DNA of 52,838 nucleotides from Lachnospiraceae bacterium (lineage in GTDB: Bacteria; Bacillota; Clostridia; Lachnospirales; Lachnospiraceae): positions 1 to 52,838 of the forward strand of contig JAFYZH010000070.1 of the NCBI GenBank assembly GCA_017548765.1. The letters run 5' to 3'. A program made the translations under genes and the position numbers. Below are positions 1-25,330 of the stretch, one piece after another. Below the pieces are notes generated by a model. That model had not been told where the DNA came from. It searched no databases and saw only the letters and a program-made list of their open reading frames with translations. How positions within the stretch are numbered: position 1 is the stretch's first letter; the number at the start of each line of letters is the position of its first letter.

Positions 1-300
1 ACTTGAAAAATGCTTGGCTTTTACTTTGTTCTTTATTTCCTCCGCTTGAAGCATGTTTCGCCCGAGTTATGCGGTCACGACCGGGCATTGGAGCGAGCGG
101 ATGTAAAACGCCGTGAGAGTGCAGCCGGATGAGTGGCGAAAAGCGATCTCCGAGGTCGCTTTTCGCGCGAGCTGATGGCGTTTTCATCAAGAAAACGCCA
201 TCTGTCGAAGCGGGCCCCCTCGAATCCATCATTGAACGAGCGGTTTGTTTTTCACAGCGAGCGAACTGACCGCGAGCAAACGCCCCCTGCGCCCTCTCAG
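1..300 (+). ncRNA. Structured RNA candidate, element E1 (5' end may lie outside the window)
   Basis: This stretch has no convincing gene but clear RNA-like structure. A 7-bp stem joins 41-47 to 95-101 (one U.G pair, which favours the plus strand). Hairpin A pairs 136-146 with 156-166 (11 bp, loop 147-155 containing TCTCCGAG). Hairpin B pairs 174-184 with 192-202 (11 bp, 7-nt loop). A further stem can pair 241-246 with 268-273. Unpaired blocks CGGGCATTGGAGCGAGC (82-98), AAAACGCCGT (105-114), GCGCGAG (165-171), TCGAAGCGG (205-213) and the 19-nt block at 255-273 recur in the same order in element E2 near 20.4 kb, where the stem sequences differ but still pair. That is seen directly; that it is transcribed is inference. 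Strand is assigned from U.G pairs and from similarity to E2. Function and family are unknown. Confidence 0.7.
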
Positions 301-351: not shown

Positions 352-2187
352 TCAATTTTTTTTGAAGCCGGCGCGTTTGCGCATGATCGGATCCAGGATC
401 TTTTTACGGATACGGAGCGACTTCGGCGTTACCTCCAGGTATTCGTCGGTGTCGATGAACTCGAGGCACTGCTCGAGGCTCATGACCTTCGGGGTGATCA
501 GGCGGAGTGCCTCATCAGCCGCGGAGGAACGGGTGTTGGTCAGCTGCTTCTTCTTGCAGACATTGACCTCGACGTCCTCAGGCTTACCGTTCTGGCCAAT
601 GACCATTCCGGCGTAGACTTTCTCGCCTGCGCCGATGAAGAGCGTACCACGCTCCTGAGCGTTGAACAGACCGTAGGTTACTGCCTCACCGGTCTCGAAG
701 GCGATGAGGGAGCCCTGCTTACGGTAGCTGATGTCGCCGGCCCACAGGTCGTATCCGTCGAATACGGTGTTCAGGATACCATTACCCTTCGTGTCGGTCA
801 TGAACTCACCGCGGTAGCCGATCAGGCCACGGGCGGGAATGCGGAACTCCAGACGGGTGTAGCCGCCGGTCGTCGCGGTGGACATACCCTGCAGTTCGCC
901 CTTACGGGAGCTGAGTTTCTGGATGACGTTGCCGGAGAATTCGTCCGGGACGTCGACATATGCCAGCTCCATGGGTTCGAGCAGGCGGTTTCTTTCATCC
1001 GTGCGGGTCAGGACCTGTGCCTTACTTACGGCAAATTCGTAGCCCTCACGGCGCATATTTTCGATCAAAACGGACAGATGGAGCTCGCCGCGGCCGGAAA
1101 CCTTAAAGGTGTCGGTCGAATCGGTCTCCTCCACACGCAGGCTGACGTCGGTGTTCAGCTCGCGGAACAGACGATCACGCAGGTGACGGGAAGTTACGAA
1201 CTTACCCTCCTGACCGGCGAACGGACTGTCATTGACCACGAAGTCCATGGACAGGGTCGGCTCGGAGATCTTCTGGAACGGGATGGGCTCCATGCCCTCT
1301 TCTGCACACAGGGTGTCACCGATGTGGATCTCGGCGATACCGGAGATCGCCACGATGGCGCCGTACTTAGCTTCATTGACCTCGACTTTATTCAGGCCGT
1401 CAAATTCATACAGGCGGCTGATCTTTACACGCTGTTTCTTCGACAGATCGTGCGCATTGACCAGGAACATATCCTGATTCACACGCAGGGTGCCGTCTTC
1501 GATCTTACCGATACCGATACGGCCGACGTACTCGTTGTAGTCGATCGTGCTGATGAGGATGCGGCCGGGAACGTCCGGGTCGCCTTCGGGCGCCGGGATG
1601 CTCTCGACGATGGTCTCCAGCAGCGGGATCATGTTCTCCTGCGGGTCGTCCAGGTTGCGAACGGCAAAACCTGCCTTCGCGGACGCGTAGATGAACGGGC
1701 AGTCGAGCTGCTTATCGTTCGCGTCCAGTTCGAGCAGAAGCTCGAGCACCTCGTCGATGACCTCCGCGGGGCGCGCCTCGGGGCGGTCGATCTTGTTGAT
1801 GCAGACGATCAGGGACAGGTCGAGCTCCAGAGCCTTACGAAGCACGAACTTCGTCTGGGGCATCGCGCCCTCGAATGCGTCAACAACGAGGATAACGCCG
1901 TCGACCATCTTCAGGACACGCTCTACCTCGCCGCCGAAATCGGCATGTCCGGGGGTGTCGACGATATTGATCTTTGTATTCTTATAGTATACCGCAGTAT
2001 TTTTGGACAAAATGGTGATGCCGCGCTCACGCTCGATATCGTTGGAGTCCATGACACGCTCTGCCACTTCCTGGTTTTCGCGGAACACGCCGCTCTGCTT
2101 GAGCAGGCCGTCTACCAGTGTGGTCTTACCATGGTCTACGTGGGCAATGATCGCAACATTTCTTACATCTTCTCTTCTCGACTGCAT
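352..2187 (-). CDS. typA: Ribosome-associated translational GTPase TypA/BipA
   Basis: A 611-residue protein of the EF-G-like GTPase family that binds the 70S ribosome; in other bacteria it aids ribosome assembly and growth under stress or cold. The N-terminal G domain shows AHVDHGKT (about residues 15-22), [13 protein letters not shown] and NKID in order, followed by EF-G-like domains and the TypA-specific C-terminal part with the [16 protein letters not shown] stretch. Length matches the family. The start at 2187 is chosen because AGAGAGG lies just upstream and TypA proteins begin at this point; a longer open frame to 2256 adds 23 unlikely residues and covers the promoter. Single gene with its own promoter and terminator, convergent with element E1. 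Confidence 0.96.
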
Positions 2188-2259
2188 ATAAACCTCTCTA
2201 AATCTTCTCTTCTGAATGTGTATGTATAACGAAACTGCGTCGAAACGCAATCCCAATGT

Positions 2260-19765: not shown

Positions 19766-19820
19766 AAACCTTCCTCTCTTTCTGTTATCACTTTCTCCGT
19801 TTCTCAAAAAACCCACTTTG

Positions 19821-19850
19821 ATTGTAGCACAGCCAACTCCGCCCACGCAA
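19821..19850 (-). promoter_or_regulatory. Candidate promoter of the Ig-repeat protein gene
   Basis: On the minus strand, TTGCGT (19845-19850) and TACAAT (19821-19826) are separated by 18 bp, with TGC directly before the -10 box. Confidence 0.5.
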
Positions 19851-19895
19851 TACCGAATTATTATATACCCTTCCCCACCTACGAGAATGAACTTT

Positions 19896-20183
19896 CCTCT
19901 TGCATTCTTCTCCCACGACCCGGCATCTTTTCCTGCCGGGTCTTTTTGCCGGTGTCATGGGCGCTGCCGGCCACAACGTTAGCTGTGGGCGGCTTCTGCC
20001 CTCGGCGGAGTCTACGGTAGTGGCCCCGGGTGCATATCGGGTTCACAGCTTAGCTCGTTTGGGATACGCGATCATAAGGCGGGCATTGGAACGAGCTGTA
20101 TGAAAACGCCGTCCATGAACAGGCGGACCCGGGTCAAAAACCGCGTCTCCGAGACCGGTTTTTGCGCGAGACGAAGACGTTTC
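19896..20183 (+). repeat. Partial tandem copy of the E2 element (copy 1)
   Basis: This 288-bp stretch is repeated at 20187-20475 with a period of 291-292 bp. I count about three substitutions and one inserted base between the copies, so the duplication is recent. Copy 1 contains the upstream terminator-like hairpin, the 5' arms, the CGGGCATTGGAACGAGC and AAAACGCCGT blocks and hairpin A, but it breaks off inside the left side of hairpin B (GACGTTT). It therefore lacks the 3' half of the element and is probably a non-functional or regulatory remnant. Confidence 0.9.
19917..19947 (+). terminator. Terminator-like hairpin at the head of copy 1
   Basis: GACCCGGCA (19917-19925) pairs with TGCCGGGTC (19934-19942), followed by TTTTT. 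The orientation is plus strand, yet no plus-strand gene precedes it. Confidence 0.7.
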
Positions 20184-20186
20184 CTG

Positions 20187-20475
20187 CCTCTTGCATTCTT
20201 CTCCCACGACCCGGCATCTTTTCCTGCCGGGTCTTTTTGTCGGTGTCATGGGCGCTGCCGGCCACAACGTTTAGCTGTGGGCGGCTTCTGCCCTCGGCGG
20301 AGTCTACGGTAGTGGCCCCGGGTGCATATCGGGTTCACAGCTTAGCTCGTTTGGGATATGAGATCATAAGGCGGGCATTGGAACGAGCTGTATGAAAACG
20401 CCGTCCATGAACAGGCGGACCCGGGTCAAAAACCGCGTCTCCGAGACCGGTTTTTGCGCGAGACGAAGACGTTTT
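20187..20475 (+). repeat. Tandem copy 2, forming the 5' half of element E2
   Basis: Second unit of the tandem repeat that starts at 19896. Unlike copy 1 it continues into the 3' half of E2. Confidence 0.9.
20208..20238 (+). terminator. Terminator-like hairpin between copy 1 and the E2 core
   Basis: GACCCGGCA (20208-20216) pairs with TGCCGGGTC (20225-20233), followed by TTTTT. It would end any plus-strand transcript of copy 1. The right half can instead pair with 20723-20740, 18 bp perfectly. Confidence 0.75.
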
Positions 20476-20741
20476 CGCCCCGATGGCAGGTCACTGCCCC
20501 GAAAACGTCTGAGTTCGAAGCGGTGCCCGAGGTCCGACTGCGAAGGGACGTTCCGTTTTCAACAGCGAGCGACCTGACCGCCGTTGATCGCATATCCAAA
20601 CCACACAAAACTAAACTATCGTCCCCCGATATGCCCCGGGGCCTCCTCCATCATTCCCCGCCGAGGGCAGAGGTCCGCCCGCATGAAAACAATTTTCCGG
20701 CAGCGCCATCTTCAGGGTACAAAAAAAGACCCGGCAGGAAA
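20221..20741 (+). repeat. Four nested inverted-repeat arms enclosing E2
   Basis: Complementary blocks in nested order: 20221-20238 with 20723-20740 (18 bp, perfect); 20248-20261 with 20697-20709 (13 bp, one bulge); 20279-20300 with 20658-20680 (about 21 bp, one bulge, includes U.G); 20314-20333 with 20625-20643 (19 bp, one bulge). Together about 70 bp of pairing closes a domain of roughly 290 nt. Confidence 0.85.
20314..20643 (+). ncRNA. Structured RNA candidate, element E2 (homologue of E1)
   Basis: Core of a second copy of the E1-type element. Stem 20344-20351 with 20382-20389; hairpin A 20427-20435 with 20448-20456, extended near the TCTCCGAG loop (20438-20445); hairpin B 20467-20477 with 20500-20510, with an inner GGCAG/CTGCC hairpin. 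Shared blocks with E1: CGGGCATTGGAACGAGC (20372-20388), AAAACGCCGT (20395-20404), GCGCGAG (20456-20462), TCGAAGCGG (20515-20523) and the 19-nt block at 20563-20581 (18 of 19 identical). The stems of A and B differ strongly from E1 but still pair, which is what a conserved RNA fold predicts. No protein-like frame spans it. Transcription and function are inferred, not seen. Convergent with pfkA, as E1 is with typA. Confidence 0.75.
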
Positions 20742-20750
20742 CCGGGTCTT
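20721..20750 (-). terminator. Terminator of pfkA
   Basis: AAGACCCGG (20726-20734) pairs with CCGGGTCTT (20742-20750); on the minus strand the hairpin is followed by T7. It lies 20 bp after the pfkA stop and doubles as the outermost 3' arm of element E2. Confidence 0.85.
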
Positions 20751-20769
20751 CTCTATCGCCTCGCGGCGT

Positions 20770-25330
<4,561 letters not shown>

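Follow-up and report, generated by a model that had tools for sequence, protein, structure and literature searches.

What kind of genetic element is E2, a sequence in a 52,838-nt stretch of Lachnospiraceae bacterium DNA (assembly GCA_017548765.1, contig JAFYZH010000070.1; hereafter the window), which the initial annotation, made from the sequence alone, placed at 20314–20643 and took to be a structured RNA with one diverged homologue, E1? The sequence blocks shared by the two copies and hairpins A and B, whose stems differ and remain complementary, were all found in the sequence, and E1 and E2 were true homologues with a common fold. The annotated interval holds the E2 core but only part of the longer, imperfect palindrome (~20208–20334 / 20625–20749) within which that core sits. 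The relevant features of the window are listed here by position.

80..274, + strand: E1 core (full model 1–196; covariance model R2, 153.4 bits)
136..166, + strand: E1 hairpin A (GCGAAAAGCGA / TCGCTTTTCGC; sequence and predicted fold)
174..202, + strand: E1 hairpin B (GATGGCGTTTT / AAAACGCCATC; sequence and predicted fold)
352..2256, − strand: typA, convergent, downstream of E1 (TIGR01394, 903.9 bits, above cut-off)
20078..20182, + strand: truncated tandem copy of the 5' half of E2 (R2, 79.5 bits across 20078–20263)
~20208..20334, + strand: E2 left palindromic arm (flank against the reverse complement of the right flank, score 92; repeats I2/I4)
20370..20582, + strand: E2 core (full model 1–196; R2, 167.1 bits)
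20427..20456, + strand: E2 hairpin A (CAAAAACCG / CGGTTTTTG; sequence; helix 7 of the counted structure)
20467..20510, + strand: E2 hairpin B (AGACGTTTTCG / CGAAAACGTCT; sequence; helix 9 of the counted structure)
~20625..20749, + strand: E2 right palindromic arm (sequence; repeats I2/I4; flank alignment)
20770..21744, − strand: pfkA, convergent, downstream of E2 (TIGR02482, 412.5 bits, above cut-off)

Results

E1 and E2 reach the threshold of no Rfam family

The two-copy view overlooked a third copy. With up to 3 mismatches allowed, the block CGGGCATTGGARCGAGC was found at three positions of the window (82, 20080 and 20372; 0.30 expected from shuffling), and the occurrence at 20080 lay in a truncated repeat of the E2 left half, arranged in tandem with a 292-bp period (19979–20182 versus 20271–20474, 99% identity). 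The tandem duplication as a whole (19896–20474), which takes in the E2 left arm and 5' half, could be genuine or an assembly artefact. The predicted fold of E2 with its inner arms (20261–20660) was better than those of 100/100 shuffles (z −7.6), and the 5' 123 nt of E1 also folded well relative to shuffles (z −5.2); the 5' 131 nt of E2 alone gave an ordinary fold (z −1.05, with 26/200 shuffles equally good).

The large structured bacterial RNAs raiA, OLE, GOLLD, ROOL and HEARO, which the initial annotation had named as classes to be excluded, are all contained in Rfam 15. No Rfam 15 family reached its gathering threshold anywhere in the window, nor in 8 loci from other genera, and permissive scans gave best E-values of 0.76 at 19800–20800 and 0.0075 at 1–400 (21.4 bits against a threshold of 97). 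Identity with a known RNA class was thus unsupported by either kind of scan, and E differs from the RNAs named above in lacking a match at threshold, in being multicopy and in often being flanked by palindromic arms. No published description of the family was found in the openly accessible journal literature searched, where three surveys of structured non-coding RNAs (PMC8632094, PMC6429828 and PMC11109978) came up with 0 uses of the word Lachnospiraceae.

E is a multicopy family of Lachnospiraceae

A covariance model identified 18 full-length and 5 partial or minimal copies in the query genome, after one row had been set aside as the reverse-strand match of a copy in that tally. By blastn, E2 matched 10 places in this genome, itself included, and had matches in 6/61 genomes, which were precisely the six of the query's genus (6/6). 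Fetching 59 regions gave an own-genus set of 68 near-full copies, of which 67, all but the truncated one at 20056, were aligned. A covariance model then revealed further copies in other genera, and a second model had matches in at least 27/397 sampled Lachnospiraceae genomes, representing at least 22/334 genera. When the best candidates per genome were scored, the query genome alone matched in a class-wide sample of 391 genomes, and the query plus one other genome of the same family matched in an order-wide sample of 392. Copy numbers and presence across the family, class and order are lower bounds, because these searches scored the best 6 or 12 candidates per genome under stricter filters. 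So far, among the samples searched, the E family is confined to Lachnospiraceae; homologues in further genomes, for which the initial annotation had looked to clostridia, were thus found, but not a clostridia-wide spread.

In some minimal copies the two ends of the core were all that remained, as though a deletion had removed the hairpin tip (L027:1863–1973, − strand; L056:2762–2872, + strand; L043:1700–1817, − strand; L059:1342–1471, − strand; L numbers denote loci and G numbers genomes). The Lachnospiraceae genome G1069 (L239, L240) contained at least six weaker matches, five spanning model positions 28–170 and one 47–149, which are perhaps a shorter variant family.

The core fold is conserved through compensatory change

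The core fold comprises 196 positions and 56 pairs, arranged as a long rod whose internal loops are purine-rich, with one branch point, a three-way junction, and two hairpins. RNAalifold on the 67 near-full own-genus copies predicted 54 pairs, 46 of which showed one or more compensatory double changes; covariation scores were consistent with this structure, and the core also contained conserved unpaired nucleotides. In an alignment made from sequence only (35 of 65 trimmed copies), 89.5% of paired cells were standard pairs, compared to 76.6% in shuffles and to 38.7–50.8% when the partners were slid, a comparison that favours the scored structure because it was derived from the same family of copies. 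Double changes occurred in 43/56 pairs of this alignment, a level reached by 0/500 shuffles. The corresponding figures from a 40-sequence alignment (91.4% of cells paired, double changes in 54/56 pairs) lean towards the model because that alignment was fitted to it. Six closely related copies in genome G142 yielded 75 changed pair comparisons, comprising 50 pair-keeping double changes, 15 pair-keeping one-sided changes and 10 broken pairs. Selection on the E fold is well supported by the 89.5% of standard pairs and the double changes in 43/56 pairs; the initial proposal of a selected fold with changing yet paired stems therefore stands. Own-genus copies fell into subtypes, one with an A-rich inner stem and another that has an additional hairpin and whose inner stem is GATGAT/GAGGATC-like.

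On the E strand, G-U outnumbered A-C by 131:55 in the core, and there was no such excess in the outer stem P1 (36:37). In a smaller set the ratios were 46:24 for the own genus and 30:30 for other genera, and in larger sets, with all pairs counted, 110:62 and 130:94, respectively, a weaker excess than in the core; helices that aligned cleanly, picked after the table had been seen, gave 63:13 and 96:25 in the larger sets. The own-genus model set held 56/60 sources (L049, L056, L067 and L083 left out) and the other-genus set 51 loci, selected so that no place entered twice; the larger-set counts were made after dropping 3 of 67 rows as self matches on the opposite strand and 5 of 69 rows as truncated. 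The G-U asymmetry favours the E strand as the one that folds, most simply as RNA. The balanced outer stem, the balanced smaller set from other genera and the weaker all-pair excess imply that part of the complementarity may be maintained by a DNA process.

E lies antisense to the 3' ends of genes, often in divergent pairs

The gene downstream of E was convergent in 51/62 own-genus and 43/59 other-genus copies, so that the element lay antisense to the 3' end of that gene (binomial P = 3e-7 and 6e-4, respectively, with copies partly dependent). Directions were taken from codon-scored gene calls for 62 of 69 own-genus and 59 of 64 other-genus copies examined. The median distance to the convergent gene was 99 nt in the own genus and 68 nt in other genera; the downstream gene had the same direction as E in the remaining 11/62 and 16/59 copies. 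Upstream genes had no clear bias (34 opposite and 19 same in the own genus; 22 opposite and 33 same in other genera). A scan of 20/44 convergent neighbours identified upp, leuS, LL-diaminopimelate aminotransferase, dnaJ, an RpoD-like sigma factor, part of rpoC, rpsA, O-acetylhomoserine sulfhydrylase, an ABC transporter and a xylosidase-like enzyme, among others, and four of the 20 matched no family at the cut used. A terminator-like hairpin with an A-run adjoined the 3' side of many own-genus copies.

Copies also occurred close to one another, with 48/133 belonging to close pairs. Among neighbours within 1.2 kb, 22/24 pairs were divergent and 0 convergent; the plus-plus exception was the E2 tandem duplicate, and the minus-minus exception, at L135, was an artefact of the overlap filter, as the second copy there scored higher on the plus strand. 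Five own-genus pairs (L057, L060, L065, L066 and L074) joined an A-rich copy to a GATGAT/GAGGATC-like one, and two others (L069 and L070) fell outside this pattern.

Many copies are flanked by palindromic arms

Flank complementarity exceeded the 95th percentile of mismatched flanks (score 39.0) in 34/60 own-genus copies, with symmetric register in 31 of the 34, and did not exceed this control in the other 26/60. This test covered 60 of the 68 own-genus copies, L067 and L068 being excluded because they begin at a contig end, and 600 control pairs, among which the maximum reached 97 because a REP-like sequence is common to several sites. Inverted copies of a REP-like sequence (TGTGTCAA..GGAACCGTCC), perhaps a RAYT-type repeat reused as a terminator, flanked many own-genus E copies on both sides, for example L075 and L083. 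The E2 score of 92 was among the highest of the own-genus copies. In other genera, scores exceeded 39 in 11/15 copies of one set and 20/22 of another, where the sets partly overlap, the stretches include the inner stem and the threshold is that of the own-genus control; arms in the 22-copy set were 18 to 122 nt long.

The outer end of the E2 right arm is a terminator-like hairpin beyond the pfkA stop, with an A-run on the + strand, and the left arm contains an inverted copy of this hairpin, with a T-run, at its own outer end (~20208–20239). Direct target duplication as the origin of the copy left of E2 was rejected, because the two copies match inverted, loop included (repeats I3/I4). At L027 the arm likewise contains inverted gene-end sequence: 13 bases of the left arm were identical to the coding bases that end the neighbouring penicillin-binding-protein-like gene.

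Copies appear to move between sites

Genome G142 carried its six copies at different loci, 89–97% identical and with common ends, in outer flanks that were unrelated by eye; target-site duplications were not seen by eye around any of the six. With site orthology defined by shared neighbouring proteins and flanks, the pfkA site contained the core in genomes G000 and G005, retained the left flank and both outer arms with the core absent in G003, and had unrelated sequence past pfkA in the three remaining genomes of the genus. Several cores were closer to a second copy within their own genome than to those at orthologous sites: L031 was 92% identical to L030 of its own genome and 72–76% to orthologous-site copies, L035 was 96% identical to L052 and 76–77% to its orthologues, and L039 was 93% identical to L035 and 81% to its orthologue. 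At other orthologous sites this was not the case (L025/L033, 97%; L026/L037, 99%; L034/L036, 89%; L053/L059, 98%), and E2 was 83% identical to its orthologue L032, no higher than L032 was to another copy in its genome. The near-identical G142 copies, the core-less orthologous site and the cores closer to same-genome copies strongly indicate that E copies move or are copied between sites. The structured RNA of the initial annotation is thus upheld as a fold, but as a dispersed, mobile-looking repeat family, often palindrome-flanked and tied to gene 3' ends, rather than as a non-coding RNA gene in one or two copies.

Neither candidate mobiliser accompanied E throughout. A Y1 transposase acting as general mobiliser was unsupported, as Y1_Tnp had no match in 7 of the 20 genomes with E that were tested, among them the query genome and one of 3.4 Mb in a single contig, and 19/30 fetched Y1 loci had no E match. 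Reverse transcriptase (RT) matches were present in 6/6 genomes of the genus and in 9/12 tested genomes without known E, and absent from E-bearing G031 and G062 among 20 E-bearing genomes tested, which led us to reject RT as a general mobiliser. The genus RT match lay in an open frame of ~402–416 aa in all of G000–G005 (e.g., G000:C26:53881–54519), with a second one in G001. In G075 (single contig, 6.9 Mb) there were 38 RT domain matches, many of them equal-scoring, which suggests a large expansion. Carriage of E as phage or plasmid cargo received no support: blastn of E2 against 50,697 phage records and of the element from G142 against 72,556 plasmid records found no match, and exact patterns of two E subtypes had no match in viral contigs.

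Discussion

We tentatively prefer, at somewhat less than an even chance, to regard E as a small, non-autonomous mobile element which comes to lie beyond gene ends and, when it is transcribed across, folds into a barrier. Near-identical dispersed copies with common ends, as in G142, are what is expected of MITEs and other non-autonomous elements. Settling would favour the ends of transcription units, and when polymerase arrives from outside, through read-through from a neighbour or antisense transcription, the emerging RNA would fold into the element and act as a barrier protecting the convergent gene; with two divergent copies, the convergent genes on both sides would be protected. More speculatively, snap-back or template-switch copying of the neighbouring gene's end may be part of how the arms arise and stay complementary. 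The copies with a same-direction downstream gene count against this explanation, as do the own-genus copies with flanks no more complementary than the control, and a read-through barrier might also predict upstream genes enriched for the same direction, which they were not.

It is possible, if unlikely, that E is instead a giant REP/BIME-like single-stranded DNA hairpin, a substrate of an HUH (Y1) transposase whose fold serves transposition and has no RNA role. Like REP, BIME and REPIN sequences, E is dispersed, extragenic, often palindromic, positioned downstream of genes and found as inverted dimers (the 22/24 divergent pairs), often heterodimers, as in the five own-genus pairs of two different subtypes. 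REPs carry a tetranucleotide tag, GTAG or CGTC, at one end; in E, the aligned arm lay between a CA on its left and a GT on its right in 15/32 other-genus copies, 7 of which had CCA and GTCC, a count made post hoc and without a chance level. CGTC-tagged REPs have CCA tails and frequently form heterodimers, and REPs measure 20–40 bp (PMC3733652). Against this reading, E is far larger than such hairpins, with a branched, covarying core of 196 positions plus arms in place of a short single hairpin, it has been seen in Lachnospiraceae only, and the association with RAYT (Y1) proteins was not found, given the E-bearing genomes without Y1_Tnp and the Y1 loci without E.

A reading in which E acts from the other strand is decidedly unlikely: as the 3'-end element of the convergent gene's mRNA, its reverse-complement hairpin would terminate transcription or block 3' exonucleases. 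The short distance to the gene end fits this, as does L206, where no T-run terminator was evident by eye ahead of the arm; but for many genes of the own genus a terminator-like hairpin already lies between gene and element, and the G-U asymmetry points to the opposite strand. That asymmetry, the deep covariation and the conserved unpaired nucleotides would all suit an independently transcribed structured RNA class, an sRNA or ribozyme with many paralogous copies. We consider this quite improbable, since the copy number and gene-end positions resemble a repeat element and sigma-70 promoters were not enriched upstream of 62 copies (mean best mismatch 4.73 versus 4.67 in shuffles and 4.21 on the opposite strand), leaving an independent transcript unsupported in this sequence-level analysis. 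That E is retro-mobile, with priming at terminator T-runs and possibly as a SINE-like RNA served by RT in trans, is very improbable: the terminator-like hairpin and A-run beside many own-genus copies and the RT matches throughout the genus agree with it, but RT was lacking from two E-bearing genomes and present in most tested genomes without known E, E had no Rfam intron match at threshold, and its orientation to the terminator is opposite to that of group IIC introns.

Group IIC introns, the model for such retro-mobility, choose targets at terminator T-runs and, like E, associate with intrinsic terminators. Among mobile intergenic repeats, the bcr1-type repeats of the Bacillus cereus group have a predicted conserved RNA fold; they occupy other hosts, and their likeness to E is one of description. 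The bcr1 repeats are not known to have site-specific palindromic arms or a gene-end orientation rule.

Beyond the preferred reading of a non-autonomous element forming a transcribed barrier lies a broader claim, which we regard as doubtful: that E represents an entirely new class of bacterial mobile element. It would be a structured RNA that spreads itself, inserts antisense at the 3' ends of genes, housekeeping genes among them in many cases, forms its own palindromic arm at every site through inverted copying of the adjacent gene end, swaps cores between sites and, in divergent pairs, insulates transcription in both directions. Whether stems and arms that change and yet remain complementary between recent copies reflect selection on RNA or template-switch DNA repair is a testable question. 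In other gut bacteria, elements of this kind may escape notice, being short, intergenic and quick to diverge in sequence. To the mobile elements with a clearly selected structure, E adds a repeat family whose conserved fold is unusually elaborate, and its association with gene ends suggests a role in setting transcription boundaries.
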